A DNA stretch of 8,587 nt from contig CAMPCG010000110.1 in NCBI GenBank assembly GCA_946644025.1, positions 1 through 8,587 on the forward strand, in the 5' to 3' direction. How positions within the stretch are numbered: the stretch's first letter is position 1; the number at the start of each line of letters is the position of its first letter. The position numbers were made by a program, and so were the translations under genes. Below are positions 1-8,587 of the stretch, piece by piece. Origin of the DNA: an uncultured Prevotellaceae bacterium. Its GTDB lineage: Bacteria; Bacteroidota; Bacteroidia; Bacteroidales; Bacteroidaceae. The notes under the pieces are model-generated. The model was not told where the DNA came from. It saw only the letters and a list, made by a program, of their open reading frames with translations, and made no database searches.

Positions 1-51
1 AGCATCTGCCTTACAAGCAGAGGGTCGGCGGTTCGAATCCGTCAACGCCCA
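1..51 (+). tRNA. tRNA-Val (UAC), 3' portion
   Basis: The window opens inside a tRNA. An anticodon stem TCTGC/GCAGA encloses the seven-base loop CTTACAA, which puts anticodon TAC at positions 34-36 and reads valine GUA codons. It is followed by a T arm with stem GGCGG/CCGTC (one G-T pair) around TTCGAAT, then the acceptor strand AACGCCC and discriminator A at 51. No CCA follows, so the CCA end must be added after transcription, as is common in Bacteroidetes. The D arm and 5' acceptor strand lie outside the window, so acceptor pairing cannot be verified. Confidence 0.93.
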
Positions 52-59
52 CAGTCCGC

Positions 60-94
60 AAAGAGGCGTGAAGAACATTTCTTCACGCCTCTTT
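60..94. terminator. Bidirectional intrinsic terminator between tRNA-Val and GH31 gene
   Basis: A perfect 16-bp inverted repeat (AAAGAGGCGTGAAGAA at 60-75 and its complement at 79-94) with a three-base CAT loop. On the + strand it is followed by a T-rich tail (CTTCGTTATTT). On the - strand the stem itself ends in TTT. It lies 8 bp after the tRNA and 5 bp beyond the GH31 stop codon, so it probably ends transcription from both converging sides. Confidence 0.88.
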
Positions 95-99
95 CTTCG

Positions 100-2439
100 T
101 TATTTCCTGAGCGTTGTCTCGCTGCCGTCATAGCTCACCTCGCGGCTGCTGCCGTCGGGGAACACTACGGTGAAGCGGCGCTGCTGCGTCATGCCGGGAT
201 AGCTGCCCTGGCGCTTGCCGATGGTGAGGGTGCGGGCGCTGTCGTCCCACGTCATGTCGATGGTGGTGTATGCGCCCTGCTCGTAGGCATAGCCATCGCC
301 CTCGTCTTCGTAGAGGGTGAAGGCGGCGTCGGCACCGGGGTAGACGCGCAGCTCCAGGCTGTCCCACGACCGCTCGCCGACGTACTCCATCTCGGGGCCC
401 AGGGGCACGATGCTTCCGGCGCGCACGAACATCGGCACGCGGTCGAGCGTGGTCTCGAGCGTCACGTCCTGTCCACCCTTGTACTGACGGCCTGTCCAGA
501 AGTCATACCAGGCAGTGCCCTTAGGCAGGTATTTCACGGCCGTCTTCTTGGCGGTGAAGTCTACGCTGCCCGTGGCCGACTGCTCGCCCGTCGACTGCCG
601 GTCCCACCCGGTCATGGCGTCGGTGCGAATGATTTTCTCCTCGGTGTACTGCGCCTCGACGATGGGTGCGGCCAGGATGCTGCGGCCGAAGAGGAACTCG
701 TCGGTCATGTCCCACGTGCGGCGGTCGGCGGCGAAGTCGGCAAAGAGCGGACGCATGTAGCTGTCGTTGGCAGAGGTCACCTGCCACGCCATACTATATA
801 AATAAGGTATAAGGCGGTAGCGCAGGCGTATCTGCCGCTCGATGGCGTCGTAGACGGGCTCGCCCTTCTTGCCAAACTGCCATATCTCGCGCGGGGCGTC
901 GGCTCCGTGGCTGCGGAAAACGGGGCAGAACAGCCCATACTGCATCCAGCGCACGTAAAGCTCCTGGAACTGCGGGTTGCGGGGGGCCGAGCCGCTGCCA
1001 CGGGTGTTGTAGGAGCCGCAGAAGAAGCCGCCGATGTCGGTGTTGAAGTTGGGGTTGCCCGTCAGCGTGAAGCTCAGTCCGGCGGGCACCTGCTTGCGCA
1101 GCATGTCCCACGACGAGTTGACGTCGCCGCTCCACATGTTCGAACCGTAGTGCTGCTGTCCGGCAAAGGAGGAGCGCGTCATGATGAACACTCGCTTAGC
1201 CCCTCCGGCGGGGTCGGGGGTGAGGCCGCGCTGGGCCTGATAGATGCCGCGCACGGTCTCCAGCGGGAAGGCGTTGCGCTGCGAGCGCCACGTGCCGCCA
1301 TAGACGGGGTGGGCGTAGTCGCTCTCCTTCGGGTTGAAGAAGTCGGGGTCGGTAGAGTCCATCCACCAGGCGTCGCAGCCGTAGTCGTAGAGCGTCTTGA
1401 GGTACTTCCAGTAGATGGCGCGGGCCTCGGGGTTGAAGGCGTCGTAGACCTTCACGCCCGAGGGATAGTTCATGTCGGGGGGCCACACGTGGGAGATGCC
1501 GCTCTGAGGCCACGTCTCGATGGGCAGGAGCAGCCCTTTCTCCGACAGCTCGCGGAACTGCCGCGTCTGCGGGCCGAAGCTGGCCCAGATGGAAATCATG
1601 AAGTGGGCGTGCTTCTTGTGGACGTTCTCTATCATCCGTTTGCCATTGGCGAAGTCCTCGGCCAGGAAGTCCATCGCGTTCCACAGGTAATTGCTGCCCC
1701 AGTACTGCCAGTCCTGTATGATGCCGTCGAGGGGCACGTGGAGCTCGCGGTAGCGGTCTACCACTCCCTCGGTCTCGCGGGCCGTCTTGTAGCGCTCCTT
1801 CGACTGCCAGTAGCCGTAGGTCCACAGGGGGAACATCGGCACGTCGCCCGTCAGGTGGCGCACCTGGGCTACGACGCCGTCGGCACTGCCGCCATACATG
1901 AAGTAGTAGTCTATGCCCTGGCCGCTCTCTGAGTCGAAGGTCATGCCGTCGGCGTTGTCCTCGAAGAGCGTGGGCGAATAGTTCTCCCAGTAGAGGCCCC
2001 ATCCCTTGATGCTCTGCAGCACGTTCTGGAAGTCCTCCAGGTTCGACTGCTCCATGCGCTTCTTCTCGCCGCGGCGGTTCATCTTGCCGTTCTGGATGGT
2101 TCCCAGCCCGTAGATGGCCTCGCCCTTGTCGAGGGTGAAGGTCTGGCGGGCCTGACCGGCGTCGCAGTCCTTCTCGCGCAGCAGCACCTTGCCCCGGGCG
2201 GTAAGGAAGGTGAGGCGGCCCTGCGCGTCCTGACGGACGGTGAGCTCGCTGCTCTTCCACAGCCCGTCGCCCGTGGTCAGCGCTACGTCCTGCGGCTTGG
2301 CAATGACGACCAGACTCTTCGTGGGCTGGCCCTTCACCACGTGTACGATACTTGGAGTCATAAACTCAACACTCACACTTTGCCCTCGGCTCTGGAGGGC
2401 GACGGCCATTATGGCCAGTAATAACAGTTTTCTCATCAT
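100..2439 (-). CDS. Secreted GH31 family alpha-glycosidase (alpha-xylosidase/alpha-glucosidase type)
   Basis: Predicted retaining exo-alpha-glycosidase of family GH31 that would remove alpha-linked glucose or xylose from oligosaccharides in the periplasm or outside the cell. The start is placed at the ATG at 2439 (or the adjacent ATG at 2436): the product then begins MMRKLLLLAIMAVALQSRGQ, a typical signal peptide without a lipobox cysteine. The longer in-frame start at 2559 would lie inside mfd and put a 40-residue basic tail before the signal. In the 779-residue protein, WWMDSTDPD carries the expected nucleophile Asp361 and WSGD the expected acid/base Asp439. PMFPLWTYGYWQSKERY and the RSSFAGQQHYG stretch are also family-typical. 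The N-terminal third looks like the mutarotase-like domain (GLGTIQNGKMNRRGEKKR). The end resembles the beta-sandwich DUF5110 (LRVYPGADAAFTLYEDEGDG). The usual Glu three residues after the nucleophile is Asp364 here. It lies 26 bp after mfd with no promoter seen between. Substrate cannot be settled from sequence. Confidence 0.93.
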   Translation of the reverse strand: MMRKLLLLAIMAVALQSRGQSVSVEFMTPSIVHVVKGQPTKSLVVIAKPQDVALTTGDGLWKSSELTVRQDAQGRLTFLTARGKVLLREKDCDAGQARQTFTLDKGEAIYGLGTIQNGKMNRRGEKKRMEQSNLEDFQNVLQSIKGWGLYWENYSPTLFEDNADGMTFDSESGQGIDYYFMYGGSADGVVAQVRHLTGDVPMFPLWTYGYWQSKERYKTARETEGVVDRYRELHVPLDGIIQDWQYWGSNYLWNAMDFLAEDFANGKRMIENVHKKHAHFMISIWASFGPQTRQFRELSEKGLLLPIETWPQSGISHVWPPDMNYPSGVKVYDAFNPEARAIYWKYLKTLYDYGCDAWWMDSTDPDFFNPKESDYAHPVYGGTWRSQRNAFPLETVRGIYQAQRGLTPDPAGGAKRVFIMTRSSFAGQQHYGSNMWSGDVNSSWDMLRKQVPAGLSFTLTGNPNFNTDIGGFFCGSYNTRGSGSAPRNPQFQELYVRWMQYGLFCPVFRSHGADAPREIWQFGKKGEPVYDAIERQIRLRYRLIPYLYSMAWQVTSANDSYMRPLFADFAADRRTWDMTDEFLFGRSILAAPIVEAQYTEEKIIRTDAMTGWDRQSTGEQSATGSVDFTAKKTAVKYLPKGTAWYDFWTGRQYKGGQDVTLETTLDRVPMFVRAGSIVPLGPEMEYVGERSWDSLELRVYPGADAAFTLYEDEGDGYAYEQGAYTTIDMTWDDSARTLTIGKRQGSYPGMTQQRRFTVVFPDGSSREVSYDGSETTLRK
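1200..1223. repeat. Possible GC-palindrome relic inside the GH31 gene
   Basis: The + strand reads CCCCTCCGGCGGGG followed by TCGGGGGTGAGG. The layout is C-run, short centre, G-run, then a GGGGGTGA tail, as in the intergenic repeat at 6459. In the GH31 protein it encodes part of LTPDPAGGAKR, just before the conserved VFIMTRSSFAG stretch. Many relatives, as I recall them, have a shorter loop here. It could equally be ordinary GC-rich coding sequence, so this is tentative. Confidence 0.3.
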
Positions 2440-2465
2440 GAATAGGTATTTGTTATCGGTAGGTT

Positions 2466-5400
2466 CTATATTTTCTTCAGCACTGCGACGGCCTCGCCCA
2501 CGGTGGGCACGTCGCTGATGACCATCGAGCGCTTGCCGTTCTGTTCGCGCAGGTTGCACCGCCTGACGTTGGCGGTGGCGTAGTCGATGATGCGCCCGAA
2601 GGCGTCGCTCTGGTAGTAGGGGCTGTTCATGTTGCTGACGAAGTAGAGGAACATACGCCCCTGCTTGAGCATGATTTTCTCGCAGCCCAGCTGCTTGCCC
2701 AGCCGTCGCAGGCCGACGACGTGCAGCAGCTCCTCGGCCTGGCGCGGCAGCTTGCCGAAGCGGTCGACGAGCCGCTGGCGGTAGGCCTCCAGCTCCTTGT
2801 CGTCGCGGGTGTTGTCGAGCTCGCGGTAGAGCAGCATACGCTCAGAGTCGGAGGGCACGTACTGGTCGGGGAAGTACATCTCGAGGTCGGACTCCAGGGT
2901 GCAGTCGGCAACAAAGTTATAAGTATTAAGTTCTAAGTCATAAGTATGGTTACTTTGTTCGCTTATGGACTTACCGGTATTTCCGCTGCTGAAGGAATCA
3001 TACTTATTACTTTTTACTTGCGACTTATTACCTATGGATTCCTCGTTCTTCAGCTCGGCCATGGCCTCGTTCAGAATCTTCTGGTAGGTCTCGTAGCCCA
3101 GGTCCGAGATGAATCCGCTCTGCTCGGAGCCGAGCAGGTTGCCTGCACCGCGAATGTCGAGGTCCTGCATGGCGATGTTGATGCCGCTTCCCAGGTCGGA
3201 GAAGTTCTCCAGTGCCTCCAGGCGTCGGCGCGAGTCGGGGGGCAGGGCCGACAGCGGCGGCGCGAGCAGGTAGCAGAAGGCCTTGCGGTTGCCGCGGCCC
3301 ACGCGACCGCGCATCTGGTGCAGGTCGGAGAGACCGAAGTTCTGCGCACTGTTGATGATGATGGTGTTGGCGTTGGGAATGTCGATGCCGTTCTCGACGA
3401 TGGTCGTCGAGAGCAGCACGTCGTAGTCGTAGTTGGAGAAGTCGAGCACTATCTTCTCCAGCTCCTCGGGGTTCATCTGTCCGTGACCGATGGCCACGCG
3501 GCAGTCGGGCACATACTTCTCTATCAGGCCCTTCAGCTCCAGGAGGTTGTTGATGCGGTTGTTGACGAAGAACACCTGTCCGTTGCGGCTCATCTCGAAG
3601 TTGATGGCGTCGGCAATGATTTCTGCCGAGAAGGTGTGTATCTCCGTCTGTATGGGGTAGCGGTTGGGGGGCGGTGTCTGTATGACGCTCAGGTCGCGTG
3701 CTCCTACGAGCGAGAACTGCAGTGTGCGCGGTATGGGCGTGGCGCTCATGGTGAGCGTGTCGACGTTGGTCTTCATCTGGCGCAGCTTCTCCTTCGTGGA
3801 GACGCCAAACTTCTGCTCCTCGTCGATGATGAGCAGACCCAGGTCCTTGAACTTCACGGTCTTGCCAATCAGCTTGTGCGTACCGATGACGATGTCTATC
3901 TTTCCTTCCTCCAGGTCTTTGAGCACAGCGGTGGTCTGCTTCTGCGAGCGTGCGCGGCTGAGGTAGTCCACCTTGACGGGCATGTCCTTGAGGCGTGAGG
4001 AGAAGGTGCGGAAGTGCTGGTATGCCAGCACCGTCGTGGGCACGAGCACGGCCGTCTGCTTGCCGTCTACGGCGGCCTTGAAGGCAGCGCGCACGGCCAC
4101 CTCGGTCTTGCCGAAGCCCACGTCGCCACACACCAGACGGTCCATGGGCACGGGCCGCTCCATGTCGGCCTTCACGTCCTGCGTGGCCTTCAGCTGGTCG
4201 GGCGTGTCCTCGTAGAGGAACGACGCCTCGAGCTCGTGCTGCAGGTAGGTGTCGTGGCTGTAGGCGAAGCCCTTCTGGTGGCGGCGGGCGGCGTAGAGGC
4301 GTATGAGGTCGCGGGCAATGTCCTTGATGTGCTTCTTCGTGCGCTCCTTCAGCCGTTCCCAGGCGCCGGTGCCCAGGGTGGAGAGCCGAGGGGGCTGACC
4401 GCCGTCCTGGCCCTTGTACTTCGACACCTTATATAAAGAATGTATAGAGACGTAGATGGCGTCGCCCCGCTGGTAGATGATTTTTATCATCTCCTGGAAC
4501 CCGCCAGGCCCTCCCCCAGCCCCTCCCTGTGAGGGAGGGGAGTAGTTAGTTTTGTCAGCAGATGAGGCGCCTACCCCCCTCCCTGTAGGGAGGGTCTGCT
4601 GGATGGGCATCCTTACCAGTCCGCCGAACTTACCCACGCCGTGGTCTATGTGGACGATGAAGTCGCCCAGCTCGAACTGCTGTATCTCCTTGAGCGTGAG
4701 GGCCATCTTGCCGCCGCGGGCCTTGTCGCTCCTCAGGTTGTACTTGTGGAAACGGTCGAAGATTTGGTGGTCGGTGAAGAGGCAGAGGCGCAGGTCGTGG
4801 TCCACGTAGCCCTCGTGCAGCGTGCGGTCTACGCCCTCGAAGGTCAGCCCCGACTTCTCCTTCAGGATGTCCTTCAGTCGGTCTATCTGCTTCGCGCTGT
4901 CGGCCAGCACGTAGAGCTGGTAGCCCTTGAGCAGATAGTCCTCGAGCGACTGCGTCAGCAGGTCGAAGTTCTTGTGGAAGAGGGGCTGGGGGGAGATGTT
5001 GAAGTGATAAGTGGCAAGTGATAAGTGACAAGTTTGGTTAGTAACGTCACCGCTTGAATAGTTACCATACTTATTACTTATTACTTCCGACTTATTACCT
5101 AAAAGAATTTTCCGGAACCGCTCGCTGTCGTCCTCAAACTGGCGCCCGCTGATAATCTGGTTGTCGCGGTGCATCTCCTGGCGTATCTGGTACTGCTCCA
5201 CCTCGGTGGCGTTCTCCAGCCGCTCGGTCATGGCCTGGGTGGAGAAGCCCTCCTGCCAGGCGCGCTCCACGCTCTCGCGCACGTAGCCGAAGTTCTTCGC
5301 CACGAGCACCGTCTGCGGCGGCAGGAAGCGCAGCAGCGACTCCCGCTCCTCTGACGTGGCCATCTCGGGCACGATGTCGATGTGGTCCCGCCGCTCGCGC

Positions 5401-6131
5401 GAGAGCTGGTTCTCCACGTCGAAGGTGCGCATGGAGTCGATGTCGTTGTCGAAGAAGTCCACGCGGAAGGGATATTCGCAGCTGAAGGAATAGACGTCGA
5501 GTATGCTGCCGCGCAGGGCGAACTGGCCCGGCTCGTAGACGTAGTCCACCTCGCGAAAACCGAAGTCGCGCAGCTTCCGGCACACGTCGCTCACGCTCAC
5601 CGTCTGACCCACGTCGAGCGACAGGGTGCGGTCGTCAAGGCTGCGCCGCGTCACCACCTGCTCGGCAATGGCCTCGGGGTAGGTGACGATATAAATAATA
5701 TGATTAGGCTTAAGGGTAGTATTCTCACCCTGCGTGTCATCACCTTTCTCTTTTCTCTTCTCTCCTTTCTCATTCAAGTGCGTCAGCACCTCCGTGCGCA
5801 GTATCTCGCTGGCCGGGTCTTTCTGTCCGTACTTGATGGCCCGGCGGTAGCTGCTGGGGAAGAAGAGCACGTCGCTGTCGCCCATCACCTGGCACAGGTC
5901 GTGGTAGAAGTAGCCGGCCTCCTCGGCATCCTGCATGATGAAGAGTAGCACCGGGCAGGGCAACTGTCCCTCCCCTACCCTGCTGTGCAGCCCACTGAAC
6001 ACCATCGCCGTGCTCGAGGCCACAAGACCGTCGAGGCAGATGGTGTCGGGAGCGCCCTTGCCAAGGGCCTTTGCCAGCGCTGCCACCTGCGGCAGACGGG
6101 CATAGATTTTCTGTAATTCCTGTATGTGCAT
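2466..6131 (-). CDS. mfd: Transcription-repair coupling factor Mfd with four in-frame repeat insertions
   Basis: Mfd is an ATP-driven DNA translocase that pushes RNA polymerase off stalled sites and recruits UvrA for nucleotide excision repair. The start MHIQELQKIYARLPQVAALAK fits the family, with no better start nearby. Visible parts of the 1221-residue protein: the UvrB-like N-terminal module to about 340; an RNA-polymerase-interaction (CarD-like) domain around GDFIVHIDHGVGKFGGLV at 489-506; Walker A GDVGFGKTE at 669-677; DEEQ box at 770-773; TMSATPIPRTL from 794; motif VI QMRGRVGRG from 939; and a C-terminal TRCF domain (LESDLEMYFPDQYV) after 1078. It is roughly 100 residues longer than I recall for Bacteroides homologues. 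The excess falls in four repeat-derived segments near residues 121-143, 345-377, 511-544 and 1034-1073. All keep the frame and no motor motif is interrupted, so the protein is probably functional. The GH31 gene follows 26 bp downstream. Confidence 0.97.
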   Translation of the reverse strand: MHIQELQKIYARLPQVAALAKALGKGAPDTICLDGLVASSTAMVFSGLHSRVGEGQLPCPVLLFIMQDAEEAGYFYHDLCQVMGDSDVLFFPSSYRRAIKYGQKDPASEILRTEVLTHLNEKGEKRKEKGDDTQGENTTLKPNHIIYIVTYPEAIAEQVVTRRSLDDRTLSLDVGQTVSVSDVCRKLRDFGFREVDYVYEPGQFALRGSILDVYSFSCEYPFRVDFFDNDIDSMRTFDVENQLSRERRDHIDIVPEMATSEERESLLRFLPPQTVLVAKNFGYVRESVERAWQEGFSTQAMTERLENATEVEQYQIRQEMHRDNQIISGRQFEDDSERFRKILLGNKSEVISNKYGNYSSGDVTNQTCHLSLATYHFNISPQPLFHKNFDLLTQSLEDYLLKGYQLYVLADSAKQIDRLKDILKEKSGLTFEGVDRTLHEGYVDHDLRLCLFTDHQIFDRFHKYNLRSDKARGGKMALTLKEIQQFELGDFIVHIDHGVGKFGGLVRMPIQQTLPTGRGVGASSADKTNYSPPSQGGAGGGPGGFQEMIKIIYQRGDAIYVSIHSLYKVSKYKGQDGGQPPRLSTLGTGAWERLKERTKKHIKDIARDLIRLYAARRHQKGFAYSHDTYLQHELEASFLYEDTPDQLKATQDVKADMERPVPMDRLVCGDVGFGKTEVAVRAAFKAAVDGKQTAVLVPTTVLAYQHFRTFSSRLKDMPVKVDYLSRARSQKQTTAVLKDLEEGKIDIVIGTHKLIGKTVKFKDLGLLIIDEEQKFGVSTKEKLRQMKTNVDTLTMSATPIPRTLQFSLVGARDLSVIQTPPPNRYPIQTEIHTFSAEIIADAINFEMSRNGQVFFVNNRINNLLELKGLIEKYVPDCRVAIGHGQMNPEELEKIVLDFSNYDYDVLLSTTIVENGIDIPNANTIIINSAQNFGLSDLHQMRGRVGRGNRKAFCYLLAPPLSALPPDSRRRLEALENFSDLGSGINIAMQDLDIRGAGNLLGSEQSGFISDLGYETYQKILNEAMAELKNEESIGNKSQVKSNKYDSFSSGNTGKSISEQSNHTYDLELNTYNFVADCTLESDLEMYFPDQYVPSDSERMLLYRELDNTRDDKELEAYRQRLVDRFGKLPRQAEELLHVVGLRRLGKQLGCEKIMLKQGRMFLYFVSNMNSPYYQSDAFGRIIDYATANVRRCNLREQNGKRSMVISDVPTVGEAVAVLKKI
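2914..3033. repeat. 120-bp heptamer-armed palindromic element, copy A, in mfd
   Basis: The left arm is five 7-bp units beginning AAGT (2914-2948: AAGTTAT, AAGTATT, AAGTTCT, AAGTCAT, AAGTATG). The right arm is five inverted units (2999-3033: CATACTT, ATTACTT, TTTACTT, GCGACTT, ATTACCT). The arms match at 26 of 35 positions in register, around a 50-bp core. Length is exactly 40 codons. It is translated within Mfd as roughly GNKSQVKSNKYDSFSSGN up to YNF (about residues 1034-1073), between the helicase core and the C-terminal domain. The right end, 2997-3034, matches copy B (5064-5101) at 35 of 38 bases. Confidence 0.9.
4500..4601. repeat. GC-rich double-palindrome insertion in mfd
   Basis: It holds two related palindromes: CCCCTCCCT/AGGGAGGGG (4520-4540, loop GTG) and CCCTCCCT/AGGGAGGG (4577-4594, loop GT). 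The second is nested in a perfect 7-bp inverted repeat CAGCAGA/TCTGCTG (4556-4562 and 4595-4601). The translation, about Mfd residues 511-544, is Gly/Pro/Ser-rich (SPPSQGGAGGGPGG) and unlike any conserved Mfd segment. It interrupts the RNA-polymerase-interaction domain between GGLVRMPI and FQEMIKIIYQRGD, where I recall other Mfd proteins having only a few residues. The exact borders are estimated from the protein. Confidence 0.85.
5002..5100. repeat. 99-bp heptamer-armed palindromic element, copy B, in mfd
   Basis: Same design as copy A. Five AAGTNNN units lie at 5002-5036 (AAGTGAT, AAGTGGC, AAGTGAT, AAGTGAC, AAGTTTG). Five inverted units lie at 5066-5100 (CATACTT, ATTACTT, ATTACTT, CCGACTT, ATTACCT). 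The arms match at 27 of 35 positions around a 29-bp core, which is 21 bp (three heptamers) shorter than in copy A. Length is exactly 33 codons. It encodes about residues 345-377 of Mfd (GNKSEVISNKYGNYSSGD onward), just after the UvrB-like module and before the conserved SPQPLFHKNFDLL segment. Confidence 0.9.
5744..5771. repeat. Heptamer array (GAGAAAG-like, four units) in mfd
   Basis: Read on the + strand as four contiguous 7-bp units: CTTTCTC, TTTTCTC, TTCTCTC, CTTTCTC. On the coding strand this is a pure-purine tract, translated as part of NEKGEKRKEKGDD at about Mfd residues 120-132. It begins an extra segment (roughly residues 121-143) between EILRTEVLTHL and YIVTYPEAIAEQVV, which I recall as nearly adjacent in Bacteroides Mfd. 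Unlike copies A and B it has no visible inverted partner arm. Confidence 0.75.
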
Positions 6132-6268
6132 TGTATTTCGTCGCAGGTCCCTCTAAGATGGCGATTTCTCCGCCCGAAAGCACGGAACCGTCCAGACTTT
6201 TGTGCGAACGCAGCTGGCCTTTCCGGCGCCCGTTTCCATCCCTTCCAGAGGGTTCCGCCAATTCGAGC

Positions 6269-6277
6269 GCAAAGTTA
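6269..6277 (-). promoter_or_regulatory. Candidate mfd promoter -7 element
   Basis: On the - strand this reads TAACTTTGC, matching the Bacteroidetes -7 consensus TAnnTTTGC. It lies about 140 bp upstream of the mfd ATG and implies a leader of roughly 130 nt. No clean TTTG -33 box sits at the usual 19-21 bp spacing (GCAAGG is found there), so the call rests mainly on the -7 box and on its position upstream of an otherwise promoterless gene pair. Confidence 0.55.
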
Positions 6278-6331
6278 CGAAAATAATTTGACATTCCTTG
6301 CATTTTTCAAAATATTTAGCACCCTTCATGC

Positions 6332-6417
6332 GCAGCCGCTTCCTTCCCCTCAAGGACACACAACGTGGCATCGGCTGCAAAATATGCCGTAGGCATCTTG
6401 TCGCCGCTACCAAGATG
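6332..6417. repeat. Structured block of nested inverted repeats
   Basis: Several short perfect stems overlap here: GCAGCCG (6332-6338) with CGGCTGC (6372-6378); GGCAT (6368-6372 area) with ATGCC (6384-6388); ATGCC-GTA-GGCAT (6384-6396); and CATCTTG (6394-6400) with CAAGATG (6411-6417). The last two share bases and so cannot form together. The ATGCCGTAGGCATCTTG string resembles a dispersed Bacteroidales intergenic repeat as I remember it, which I cannot confirm here. Confidence 0.5.
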
Positions 6418-6458
6418 TGTATAAAGTAGTCAAAGGGGAGATGGCTCTCGTCGGATTT

Positions 6459-6486
6459 CCCCCTAGGGGGGGCACGGTGGGGGTGA
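6459..6486. repeat. Intergenic GC palindrome with G-rich tail
   Basis: A perfect 12-bp palindrome CCCCCTAGGGGG (6459-6470) runs into the tail GGCACGGTGGGGGTGA. The layout of C-run, short centre, G-run and GGTGGGGGTGA-like tail matches the insertion in mfd (on its coding strand: palindrome followed by CTGGGGGAGGG). This suggests one dispersed family with members both inside and outside genes. Confidence 0.6.
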
Positions 6487-6550
6487 CTTCTTTTTTGCGA
6501 ATAAATATAAAAAGGTGGGGCAAAAGCGACGTTTATTCTCAAATTATTAG

Positions 6551-6559
6551 TACCTTTGC
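6551..6559 (+). promoter_or_regulatory. Regulator gene promoter -7 element
   Basis: TACCTTTGC matches the Bacteroidetes -7 consensus and is identical to the box before the esterase gene at 7938. The -33 region is poorly matched (TTTA at 6532, about 15 bp away, is too close). Transcription would start near 6566, giving a leader of about 105 nt that includes the GC repeat at 6611-6640. Confidence 0.65.
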
Positions 6560-6610
6560 GTCGATATTCAAAATTCTTAGGATTACGACAGAGGCCACGC
6601 TCCAGTCCTG

Positions 6611-6640
6611 CCCCCCCATCGAGGGCGAGGGCGGCGTGGG
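6611..6640. repeat. Diverged GC repeat in the regulator leader
   Basis: CCCCCCCATCGAGGGCGAGG followed by GCGGCGTGGG. A C-run and G-run flank a short centre and a GGCGTGGG tail follows, the same order as the repeat at 6459. It would be transcribed in the 5' leader of the regulator mRNA, about 30 bp before the ATG, and could form a hairpin (CCC-ATCGA-GGG). Membership of the family is tentative. Confidence 0.45.
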
Positions 6641-6670
6641 TTCTTAAACTTTCAGACACTGACTTCAGTC

Positions 6671-7783
6671 ATGTACGACCATCAGGTACAGGAACACTTC
6701 TTCTATATGATGCTCTACGGAGCGGTGGCCATGATGTCTTTGCTGGCCAGCTGCTATCTGCTGTTCCGCCGTAGCAACGCCATTGCCCCCGAGGTCACTT
6801 CGCCAGTACGCCTCCGGCGGTGGACAGCGGCCTTCTTTGCCAGCATGACGCTGAGCCATATATGGTATTTGCCTATACTCTTTCTAACCTCCGACGAGGA
6901 CATCCTCCGGAGCTATCTTGCAGGGGCAGTGCTCGACTTCATGACGCTGATTCCCCTGGCCCTCGTCATGCTGCTCGTCATGCTGCAAGACCGCAGGCGC
7001 CCGCTGTGGCCTGTCGGCGTGATGGTGGCACCCGTCATCATAGGTCTGTCAATATGTTTCCTACGGAGTAACATTGACTTCCTGCCGCTGTTCCATGCCT
7101 ATCATGTCTTGCTGGGCATCTGCCTGACTATATATATGATTCGCGCGACGAGGCAGTACGGACGCTGGCTGCGCGAGAACTATGCCGACCTGGAGCACAA
7201 GGAGGTGTGGCAGAGCCTTACCGTCCTGGCCATCATCCTGCTGGTATTCGGCATCTATTCGTATGGCTTCAAAAGCATGACTTATAAATACATCACGCAG
7301 TTGAACAACATTGTGCTCATCAGCTATCTGCTGTGGCGGGTAGAAACACTGAGCGACCTCAGCATCCCTGCCATCGAGACGCAAGACGCGCCGGTCGCCG
7401 CAGCGGAAGCGGAAGGCGACGACCAGCCGCCGACCTTCCTCAACGACATAGGGCCCCTGCTGAAGCAATTTTGCGAGGAGCCCCGGCTCTATCTGCAATA
7501 CGATGTCTCAGTGGCGCAGCTCGCCACGCTGTTAGGCACCAACCGCGTCTATCTCAGCAAGTACTTTGCCCGGCAGGGAACCACTTACAATGCATACATC
7601 AACAGCCTGCGCCTACAGCATGTCATCAAGCTTTACCACGAGGCAGTCGCTGCCGGCCAGCCTGTGATAGCCAAGCAACTGGCCTATCGGAGCGGATTCA
7701 AAAGCTACAGCACATTCAGCGCCGTCTTCAAGCAGATTATGGGAATGACGGTCACCGAATGGATGCACAGCATGGGGGAGTAG
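6671..7783 (+). CDS. Membrane-anchored AraC-family transcription regulator
   Basis: A 370-residue protein with an integral-membrane N-terminal half and a DNA-binding C-terminal domain. Hydrophobic segments near residues 11-33, 50-72, 82-105, 112-132, 138-157, 180-200 and 207-223 suggest seven membrane helices. A polar Ala/Glu-rich linker (about 230-255) follows. The last 110 residues form an AraC/XylS-type domain with two helix-turn-helices: VSVAQLATLLGTNRVYLSKYF (279-299) and IAKQLAYRSGFKSYSTFSAVFKQ (333-355). The second has the typical GFKSYSTFSAVFK signature. Such regulators occur in Bacteroidetes, where the membrane part may sense an unknown signal. No kinase or receiver domain is present, so this is not a hybrid two-component protein. 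The ATG at 6671 is the first in frame after the promoter. It is followed by tandem repeats and an esterase gene on the same strand, which it may control. The inducing signal is unknown. Confidence 0.92.
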   Translation: MYDHQVQEHFFYMMLYGAVAMMSLLASCYLLFRRSNAIAPEVTSPVRLRRWTAAFFASMTLSHIWYLPILFLTSDEDILRSYLAGAVLDFMTLIPLALVMLLVMLQDRRRPLWPVGVMVAPVIIGLSICFLRSNIDFLPLFHAYHVLLGICLTIYMIRATRQYGRWLRENYADLEHKEVWQSLTVLAIILLVFGIYSYGFKSMTYKYITQLNNIVLISYLLWRVETLSDLSIPAIETQDAPVAAAEAEGDDQPPTFLNDIGPLLKQFCEEPRLYLQYDVSVAQLATLLGTNRVYLSKYFARQGTTYNAYINSLRLQHVIKLYHEAVAAGQPVIAKQLAYRSGFKSYSTFSAVFKQIMGMTVTEWMHSMGE

Positions 7784-7804
7784 GAGGGTGCAGCCAATTC
7801 CACC

Positions 7805-7889
7805 GAGACTTTCAGAATTGTAAAAAGAGACTTTCAGAATTGTAAAATGGGCCTTTCGGAATTGTAAAAACGTCTCAGAATTGTAAAAA
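7805..7889 (+). repeat. Four tandem 22-bp repeats, candidate regulator-binding sites
   Basis: Units at 7805-7826, 7827-7848, 7849-7870 and 7871-7889 share the core CTTTCAGAATTGTAAAA. Units 1 and 2 differ only at the last base, unit 3 has four changes, and unit 4 is three bases short at its start. The 22-bp period is about two turns of the helix, so equivalent bases face the same side, as in tandem sites bound by AraC-type proteins. The array ends about 25 bp before the -33 box of the esterase promoter, a typical activator position. There is no other direct evidence for binding. Confidence 0.85.
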
Positions 7890-7914
7890 CCTGCCATCCG
7901 GGACTTACCGAACA

Positions 7915-7946
7915 TTGCAGTTTATAGGGGAATAGGCTACCTTTGC
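7915..7946 (+). promoter_or_regulatory. Esterase gene promoter (Bacteroidetes type)
   Basis: TTG at 7915-7917 serves as the -33 box. After 20 bp, TACCTTTGC at 7938-7946 matches the -7 consensus TAnnTTTGC. Transcription would start near 7953, giving a short AT-rich leader of about 22 nt before the ATG at 7975 with no Shine-Dalgarno sequence, as is usual in this phylum. Confidence 0.8.
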
Positions 7947-7974
7947 GCCGCCAAATATAACCCCTAATTGCAAT

Positions 7975-8587
7975 ATGAGAAAGTTAAAAAACTGGATGTT
8001 TGCCGCCATCCTTATCTGCGGCACGACTAATGTTCTCACATCATGTTCGGACAAAGACGACGACCCGACACCCGTGACGCCAGAGAGCGGGACTAACGAG
8101 AACAAAGAGATTACCGACGGCAACTATGACAGGTCGCTGGCCGTGAAGTGCATCAACGGAACCTTCGTTGGCAAGAAGACAGACAATGTCATTACCTACA
8201 AGGGTATTCCCTACGTCGGCCAGCAGCCTATAGGCAACCTCCGCTGGAAAGCACCAGTAGACGCTACACCCAGCAACGGTGTCTATGAGGCCTATTACAA
8301 TGCTAAAGGTGCGTGTCAGGCTGAAGGAATCGTACCCACTCAGGGTGAGGACTGCCTGTATCTGAACGTGTGGAAAGCCGACGACGCGACTTCGCAGAGA
8401 AAGCCGGTCATGGTATGGATTCATGGCGGTGCTTTTGTTGGTGGCGGAACGGGCATGGACCTGTTTGACTGCACGAATTTCATAAAGGAGAATCCCGACG
8501 TCATCGTTGTGACCGTGGCCTACAGACTCGGCGTCATGGGCTTCCTCCATCTGTCTCACCTGCCTGACGGCAAGGATTATCCTGATG
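7975..8587 (+). CDS. Lipoprotein carboxylesterase, type B family (5' part)
   Basis: The first 204 codons of an alpha/beta-hydrolase of the carboxylesterase type B / para-nitrobenzyl esterase family; the gene runs off the window. The product starts MRKLKNWMFAAILICGTTNV and then LTSC, a lipoprotein signal with the lipid-carrying Cys24. The following SDKDDD is acidic, like the surface-export signal described for Bacteroidetes lipoproteins, so the enzyme may face outward. Family marks are YKGIPYVGQQPIGNLRWKAP (75-94), the EDCLYLNVW signature (125-133) and the oxyanion-hole motif HGGAF (150-154). The catalytic Ser, Glu/Asp and His should lie beyond the window and cannot be checked. The family hydrolyses carboxylic esters; in gut Bacteroidales a plausible target is acyl groups on plant polysaccharides, but that is a guess. 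It has its own promoter behind four tandem repeats. Confidence 0.93.
   Translation, partial: MRKLKNWMFAAILICGTTNVLTSCSDKDDDPTPVTPESGTNENKEITDGNYDRSLAVKCINGTFVGKKTDNVITYKGIPYVGQQPIGNLRWKAPVDATPSNGVYEAYYNAKGACQAEGIVPTQGEDCLYLNVWKADDATSQRKPVMVWIHGGAFVGGGTGMDLFDCTNFIKENPDVIVVTVAYRLGVMGFLHLSHLPDGKDYPD

Follow-up and report, generated by a model that had tools for sequence, protein, structure and literature searches.

The window analysed here is the whole of an 8,587 bp stretch of DNA from an uncultured Prevotellaceae bacterium (GenBank assembly GCA_946644025.1, contig CAMPCG010000110.1, positions 1 to 8,587 of the forward strand). It contains an mfd gene, encoding the transcription-repair coupling factor, whose reading frame runs through two palindromic elements, here called A and B, with arms made of tandem heptamers. 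The identification of the host gene in the original prediction, which was made from the sequence alone, was confirmed by matches of the product to the Pfam domains TRCF, DEAD, Helicase_C, UvrB_inter and CarD_TRCF_RID. The gene and the two elements are arranged as follows (evidence in brackets).

2466–6131, minus strand: mfd, 1221 aa, host gene of the elements (open reading frame, Pfam and 80 Prevotella homologues)
2914–3033, minus strand: element A, a palindrome with heptamer arms in the linker that precedes the TRCF domain, at about residues 1033–1072 of Mfd, IGNKSQVKSNKYDSFSSGNTGKSISEQSNHTYDLELNTYN (unit positions, lag 7, hairpin, alignment)
2914–2948, no strand assigned: left arm of A, (AAGTNNN)x5, last unit AAGTATG (unit positions, lag 7)
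2998–3033, no strand assigned: right arm of A, ACTT four times at a spacing of 7 and one degenerate unit (unit positions, lag 7)
5002–5100, minus strand: element B, a palindrome with heptamer arms in a loop, at about residues 343–377 of Mfd, LLGNKSEVISNKYGNYSSGDVTNQTCHLSLATYHF (fold, units, lag 7, model, alignment)
5002–5036, no strand assigned: left arm of B, (AAGTNNN)x5, the sole arm remaining in locus L001 of a relative (unit positions, lag 7)
5066–5100, no strand assigned: right arm of B, ACTT four times at a spacing of 7 and one degenerate unit (unit positions, lag 7)

In the left arms, AAGT recurs five times at a spacing of 7 nt (at 2914, 2921, 2928, 2935 and 2942 in A and at 5002, 5009, 5016, 5023 and 5030 in B). 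The original prediction had given every arm five units, which is correct for the left arms, but each inverted arm has four exact ACTT units at the same spacing (3002, 3009, 3016 and 3023 in A; 5069, 5076, 5083 and 5090 in B) and a fifth that is degenerate (TACCT). The window has six occurrences of four AAGTNNN units (or their complement) in succession, against none in 500 order-1 simulations, and the self-match of the four arms at lag 7 (0.66–0.71) was higher than at the other lags from 4 to 11. The predicted likeness of the right ends of A and B is real, though the count is 34 rather than 35 identical bases out of 38; a repeat search found 94% identity over 36 nt. At 120 and 99 nt, both elements are divisible by three and, as had been stated, open in the mfd frame, which is the only one of the six frames without a stop in each. 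Given the open host frame across the inserts, splicing or ribosomal bypass of them was considered unlikely.

When folded as RNA and as DNA and compared with shuffled sequence, A and B each formed one long hairpin. The RNA folds of the plus strand were −35.7 kcal/mol (z −5.7) for B and −31.6 kcal/mol (z −3.9) for A, with z values of −4.3 and −2.3, respectively, for the coding strand, and z was −2.1 to −3.3 for the DNA folds. Both elements had been placed at domain borders. This holds for A, which maps between residues 987 and 1007 of Escherichia coli Mfd, but B is in a loop rather than at a clear border, since it lies between two strands of an AlphaFold model and the predicted local distance difference test score (pLDDT) is below 50 at residues 352–369. 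The model, built from 28 sequences, covers Mfd residues 1–600 with a mean pLDDT of 66, and two insert sites (residues 122–142 and 352–369) are low-confidence loops with pLDDT below 50; values below 50 were also obtained at 97–102, 238–246 and 460–600, which carry no insert on our account or are poorly modelled.

All data on copies in relatives were drawn from 80 Prevotella loci found with Mfd, the genomes behind some of these, and metagenome proteins. The best two of the 80 matches to Mfd were 80% identical. In an alignment of 81 Mfd sequences, variation was concentrated in a handful of hypervariable sites, and A and B are both inside such sites, the stretch with A ranging from 23 to 82 residues and that with B from 28 to 63. 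At these positions the relatives have palindromes made of other heptamers or of a GC-rich type, a single arm, or little. The heptamer occupants of Mfd linkers encode QHSTLNA repeats (L005) or MRNEELEMRN...HSSFLISHSSF-like peptides (L003 and L029), while those of the GC-rich type encode PSPREG...PLPWGGEGGG. In L001, P0002 and P0005, the element B site holds only GNQTYHLSLITY(H/N)F; the DNA of L001 has a single array there (GTAACCAAACTTATCACTT...), and L001 and P0002 apparently retain one arm only of element B. An AAGT-type peptide (NKSEVLSNKYGNNSNDDKGNQTYNLKLNTSNL) was found in a different linker of P0009. Related Mfd proteins do not, then, all conserve the same segments, and with the differences between relatives at these sites and the in-frame copies in other genes described below, the segments are variable palindromic elements, as originally suggested, and not old protein structure. 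Two heptamer arrays of about 130 and 160 bp with TCAACAC/GTTGAGA-type units were also seen in L005, one (5457–5588) in frame in an Mfd linker and the other (9228–9387), with the complementary unit, downstream of mfd.

One homologue, P0001 (1250 aa), is 95% identical to the window Mfd. It differs by six substitutions (K125R, K127N, S171P, N280D, P965A and D1065N), a longer start, a small change at residues 536–542 and a swapped segment at residues 343–378, where a longer cassette of the GC-rich type (QTHPRPLPAGRGVV...YSPPSRGGAGGGSLSFS) replaces the heptamer cassette B. Homologous recombination with the mfd of another species, rather than activity of the elements, is a real possibility for this exchange, though we lean against it. 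A similar GC-rich-type cassette is present at the same site in P0004 and P0009, so donors for such recombination exist. However, the recombined tract would be very short, with only the six substitutions and the change at 536–542 elsewhere in the shared protein, and recombination leaves unexplained the within-species matching of arms in MetH (see below).

The expectation that further copies exist was borne out, as in-frame copies of the same style were found in other genes of two relatives, G022 and G012. A translated search of 25 genomes with the 36-residue insert had 16 matches, all weak (best E 0.012) and spread over 10 genomes. Eight of the 16 loci were inspected, four of which had clear in-frame copies and four did not. 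The clear copies are in an AAA_11/12 helicase (two), a GH31 enzyme and a CCA tRNA nucleotidyltransferase of G022 and in a U32 peptidase of G012; among the other matches, one was the mfd of L001 itself and several were interrupted by stops or in short frames. DNA patterns led to 13 further elements, four with a frame open throughout and nine without. Three of the four are in G022, in the gene for FGAR-AT (purL), in that for a probable amidohydrolase (Pfam match below the cut-off), which we take to be imidazolonepropionase, and in a gene with no Pfam match; the open frame of L330 in G024 was taken as spurious. In total, G022 has seven in-frame copies, in six genes, and G012 has one.

At their left ends the copies share SEK.EV(R/K)S- or NKSEV.S-like sequences, mostly followed by (E/N)K(Y/F/S), which is absent in L223, and at their right ends TSHLSLLTSHL-like sequences. 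Perfect AAGTGAG repeats would place an in-frame TGA every 21 nt, and at these positions the window, L209, L217 and L222 copies have TCG, TTA or GGA. When 17 elements were examined for open frames, all seven then known as coding had exactly one of the six frames open; among the other ten, L223, L224 and L225 had one, L229 had two and six had none. These counts were rejected as evidence of selection and show compatibility only, because an element classed as coding already requires an open frame. In the G028 sample, two similar GAGGAAG-armed hairpins with related loops (15274–15402 and 16071–16201 of L091) are present in a single open frame of 769 codons.

The host loop in the CCA enzyme is itself variable. 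Among 120 homologues of the G022 enzyme, the segment from EVLENV to YLRWAALL, borders included, is 18 to 98 residues long; dozens of arm-like peptides occur in it, and P0131, P0160 and P0225 have near-empty forms. The DNA of the loop was sought in 30 genomes, 27 of which matched; five of the matched genomes were not parsed, and removal of three repeats of the same locus reduced the 25 sequences to 22, the query included. Hairpins of −43.6 kcal/mol or stronger, of several sequence types, were present in 10 of the 22 genomes (folds made without a shuffle control). Three of the ten are heptameric with different heptamers (L243, L245 and L251) and seven are GC-rich, four of these sharing a motif; L244 has near-perfect arms of about 34 bp. 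The remaining loops included one at −30.0 kcal/mol and eleven that were short, one-armed or weakly structured.

A different arrangement was found in the methionine synthase MetH. The MetH activation domain (Pfam Met_synt_B12) is present in 25 of the 80 loci, seven of which have inserts of at least 30 nt in both of two loops; the other 18 do not. The two loops flank a conserved 63 nt stretch of host DNA encoding R(I/V)PCLRQQ...L(S/A)DF, and the sites are near-empty in L063, L015 and L036. Within each species the paired inserts are reverse complements, whereas four heptamer classes were seen between species. In L066, a private variant heptamer, AGAAGCT, occurs on one arm and is matched by its complement where the other arm pairs with it. 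The loci were not chosen for pairing, and in permutation tests, which ignore the relatedness of the species, the pair scores summed to 174, whereas permuted sums averaged 93.8 (p about 7e-4; 20,000 permutations, no hand trimming). In 28 nt arms, 172 of 196 positions were Watson-Crick paired against a mean of 114.6, a value reached by 4 of 5040 permutations. Since host sequence would not form the loop of a unit that had jumped intact, the MetH arms must have been copied from each other, been selected to pair or been inserted singly. Insertion of units alone does not explain this pattern; hairpin-templated copying of one arm from the other, or selection for pairing, would.

The original prediction of a family defined by AAGTNNN arms was right in kind but too narrow, as AAGTNNN is one of 78 heptamer classes among 182 arrays. 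The period of seven is itself distinctive: in 1.11 Mb of mfd loci there were 144 arrays at lag 7 and no more than 15 at any other lag from 2 to 13. The mfd loci had 12.9 lag-7 arrays per 100 kb, distributed over 52 of the 80, compared with 19.2, 6.2 and 16.3 per 100 kb in samples of the genomes G028, G018 (P. communis) and G002 and 0.77 per 100 kb in 31 stretches (519 kb) from across the phylum, four further stretches picked for heptamer matches having been excluded before counting. For hairpins defined strictly the densities were 6.5 in the mfd loci, 6.8, 1.8 and 4.3 in G028, G018 and G002, and 0.77 in the phylum stretches. Period-8 arrays were also in excess in the G028 sample (L089–L108), with 34 in 400 kb.

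An inverted partner was found within 220 bp of 77 of 292 arrays, against 4 of 292 when foreign flanks were used and 12 of 292 for direct partners. The midpoint of the array was in an open reading frame (ORF) of at least 100 aa for 87 of 144 arrays in the mfd loci and for 43 of 77, 9 of 25 and 20 of 45 in G028, G018 and G002, shares that lie below the coding share of 0.88–0.91 (crude ORF calls). Locally shuffled sequence gave no strict hairpins well inside ORFs. Confinement to Prevotella was rejected: among genomes of the genus of G018, 18 of 80 had four CACTTNT units in tandem, as did 4 of 81 from the family and 11 of 118 from the phylum, and the spread is therefore patchy. The reversed control of this pattern also matches many genomes, because other heptamers fit it.

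Taken together, these data place A and B in a diverse set of heptamer-armed, hairpin-forming coding palindromes that occupy tolerant protein loops in rumen Prevotella, and we propose, with moderate confidence, the following mechanism for them. Heptamer arrays would grow and turn over through slippage by 7 nt. Single-stranded DNA may then snap back on an array and be copied, through template switching and quasi-palindrome correction, which would write or repair the second arm as the reverse complement of the first. Some elements would in addition be copied to new sites, and selection would remove those with in-frame stops or in structured parts of proteins. The product would be a translated and probably disordered loop with no gene-specific function, and the DNA could persist as nearly neutral or selfish sequence.

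Within this proposal, the more specific claim that a mutational process in some Prevotella lineages copies heptamer arrays in reverse-complement form over tens of intervening bases is put forward tentatively. Local copying is favoured by MetH, the one-armed states, the variable loops and the lack of any excess of the inner 14-mer (see below). If it is correct, an array-copying process writes matched arms into two separate loops of MetH while the host sequence between them is kept, and new in-frame protein loops have a standing source with no need for transposition of units. The original prediction of a mobile or copy-prone element gains support from the in-frame copies in genes of relatives, but mobility is unproven, given the count of the 14-mer and the differing loops; the MetH arms flank host sequence and so make local copying from arm to arm at least as likely as transposition of a unit. 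We infer that both movement and local copying occur, local copying mainly in the heptamer elements and movement mainly in the GC-rich ones.

Several observations weigh against this account. It leaves the period of seven unexplained. At the threshold used, 215 of the 292 arrays had no partner, and the strict hairpins well inside ORFs were few in the three sampled genomes (4 of 27, 0 of 7 and 3 of 12), so that most in these samples are outside genes or near gene ends. Substitutions between the close relatives L031 and L062, read by eye, are not compensated. The strong folds in the CCA loop lack a shuffle control. In MetH, some permutations exceeded the observed pair-score sum (maximum 183), the register of the 28 nt arms was set by hand, and only four heptamer classes are represented among the seven loci. 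The number of covarying columns there (20 against a mean of 11.5) was reached by 494 of 5040 permutations and is not exceptional, and we regard it as weak evidence. A permutation comparing own-arm with cross-element matches gave p values from 2e-4 to 0.046 and was dropped as main evidence; it is partly circular because the elements were picked for having a matching partner. Finally, the loop common to L223 and L225 and the likeness of loops in G028 suggest that whole elements move too.

Such movement is the core of an alternative in which the elements form a miniature transposable family, like miniature inverted-repeat transposable elements (MITEs) or repetitive extragenic palindromes (REPs), its members being carried intact by a transposase from another locus, such as a Y1 (HUH) enzyme, with loops and arms decaying later. 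The seven in-frame copies in G022 with their related arm peptides would fit this, as would the 21 nt loop shared in opposite orientation by L223 and L225 and the common inner arm end AAGTATGGTTA, with its complement, in several copies of G024. Similar loops, some of them in G028, were seen in 8 of 91 pairs from the same genome against 24 of 855 other pairs, the latter partly from orthologous loci. The GC-rich type reaches high copy number (28 of the 30 genomes have it, G005 has the most sites, 128, and the reversed control had no matches), and Y1 transposase domains exceeded the cut-off in 8 of 11 relatives. However, no transposase is linked to the elements so far, loops mostly differ between copies, and the MetH arms, which may have inserted independently, flank conserved host coding DNA. 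Moreover, the inner 14-mer TAAGTATGGTTACT, allowing up to one mismatch, had 28 matches in 25 genomes against 30 for the reversed control, which is no excess. On this count a fixed high-copy family of the window's element was not supported, the clearest exception being G024 with 6 matches against 1. Overall, we consider a transposed family unlikely for the elements as a whole. The GC-rich motif CCCCCNGCCCCTCCC..GGGAGGGG varied from 0 to 128 sites per genome among 30 relatives, which suggests recent bursts in some species.

It is less likely still that selection acts on the hairpin, whose RNA or DNA form would tune expression, mRNA stability or supercoiling, with compensatory changes keeping the arms paired. 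The arms do remain complementary though their sequence differs between species, and the window folds are stronger than most shuffles, but many relatives have these loops empty, short or with a single arm, and the elements occur in unrelated genes and at intergenic sites, with different sequences. The intergenic arrays were also not associated with a Bacteroidetes-type promoter motif, which accompanied 30 of 132 arrays and was present in 301 of 1390 non-ORF windows taken at random. Plain slippage of low-complexity sequence in disordered linkers, with inverted arms arising by chance, is very improbable, even though most arrays are single and the passages of PMC4679880 that cite Mrazek 2007 describe heptamer repeats as common among the longer simple repeats of bacteria, because inverted partners outnumber direct ones by 77 to 12 and those in foreign flanks by 77 to 4, and L244 has near-perfect arms of about 34 bp.

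The closest known kind is that of the Rickettsia palindromic elements (RPEs), and the comparison with these in the original prediction is apt, in that in-frame palindromes are found in unrelated genes with near-empty sites in relatives; the likeness is drawn from descriptions at the level of kind. Passages of PMC10969869 describe ten families of RPEs, palindromes about 150 bp long, with 44 integrations in R. conorii, nearly half of them in ORFs. According to the relevant sections of PMC10969869, PMC2996958 and PMC3733652, RPEs and their counterparts in Wolbachia and Methanocaldococcus measure about 150 bp or less, are inserted in frame in unrelated genes, encode related peptides and typically occupy unstructured parts of proteins. 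Like RPEs, elements A and B are palindromic, 120 and 99 bp long, and fold into one hairpin (RNA z −2.3 to −5.7). Related elements are in frame in unrelated genes (AAA_11/12 helicase, GH31 enzyme, CCA enzyme, U32 peptidase, FGAR-AT and others), and near-empty orthologous sites were found in the CCA enzyme (P0131, P0160 and P0225), in MetH (L063, L015 and L036) and as short Mfd linkers. As to conservation across the copies of a family, loop included, the arms are alike, the loops mostly differ (those of L223 and L225 and some in G028 are alike), and the inner 14-mer is not enriched. Unlike RPEs, the arms are tandem heptamers that differ by locus and genome, the inner sequence tested is low-copy, several palindrome types use the same loop, and the MetH arms flank host DNA.

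Coding palindromes in the form of long inverted repeats with matched arms are reported from nematomorph mitochondria in the parts of PMC6649704 that discuss template switching as one possible mechanism. There, as far as those parts describe them, both arms encode conserved amino acids, whereas here the arms are extra heptamer sequence in loops and the host is a bacterium. Passages of PMC3733652 and PMC6006769 describe REPs and bacterial interspersed mosaic elements (BIMEs), with the REP-associated tyrosine transposase RAYT (Y1), as small hairpins, often paired in opposite orientation and sometimes intragenic, and the former mentions intragenic REPs in other bacteria, many in replication and repair genes. 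The present case resembles these in the Y1 domains of relatives and in a GC-rich element at 4503–4604 (see below) that is similar in kind to REPs. To our knowledge, heptamer arms are not a REP feature. Inverted arms, one of the features of MITEs, are present, and Y1 domains occur in the genomes of relatives, so far unlinked to the elements; Pfam gave no Y1 match in the four main window proteins.

Heptamer arrays with a fixed unit are also on record, of the TAACTGA type in Beggiatoaceae, Cyanobacteria and five Bacteroidetes (sections of PMC4679880) and as GGGAATC and GGGGA(C/T)T in Xanthomonas and Nostoc (sections of PMC4692102). The present arrays are like these, and like cyanobacterial heptanucleotide repeats, in being tandem 7 nt units found genome-wide and mostly outside genes. 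Insofar as those sections describe one or a few units in mainly direct arrangement, the present arrays differ in having dozens of units, an inverted partner for a quarter of the arrays and some copies in frame. Among the matches listed in literature searches, mostly outside subscription journals, none was recognisable by its title or the start of its abstract as dealing with heptamer-armed or coding palindromes in Prevotella or Bacteroidales. What appears new is a set of protein-coding palindromic elements with period-7 arms, in which the arm sequences are matched but fast-changing.

Protein-coding palindromes, known from Rickettsia, Wolbachia and a few others, occur here in gut Prevotella. 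Here many different sequences occupy the same loops of the same housekeeping enzymes, one-armed and near-empty states included, and the origin, movement and arm matching of coding palindromes become testable by comparison of strains. The findings also bear on the origin of disordered loops in bacterial proteins and on their annotation and modelling.

Three other variable sites were found in the same mfd gene.

4503–4604, minus strand: third in-frame palindromic element, of the GC-rich REP-like type, IQQTLPTGRGVGASSADKTNYSPPSQGGAGGGPG (RNA fold, motif in relatives, alignment)
5697–5780, minus strand: hypervariable Mfd site, residues about 118–145, with a one-armed T/C-rich period-7 run at 5737–5766 (lag 7, alignment, model)
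5952–5981, minus strand: hypervariable Mfd site, residues 51–60 (RVGEGQLPCP), short in most relatives shown (alignment)

The RNA fold of 4495–4612 was −62.5 kcal/mol (z −2.9), and the site of this element is shorter in most of the relatives shown in the alignment. At 5697–5780 the match at lag 7 was 0.70, with lag 5 the next best at 0.64, and P0002 and P0009 have longer, two-armed-looking inserts there.

Elsewhere in the window, one tRNA was the only known RNA family at the gathering threshold, and a perfect 16 bp inverted repeat with a 3 nt loop directly past it (60–94) is probably a terminator. Four near-repeats of 22 nt (GAGACTTTCAGAATTGTAAAAA type) at 7805–7889, with spacings of 22, 22 and 19, are located between the genes for an AraC-type regulator and a carboxylesterase and are possibly sites for a regulator; period-22 arrays are frequent in relatives too. 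A short GC-rich near-palindrome (CCCCCTAGGGGGGGCACGGTGGGGG) at 6459–6483, between mfd and the AraC-type gene, is possibly a remnant of the GC-rich element type.

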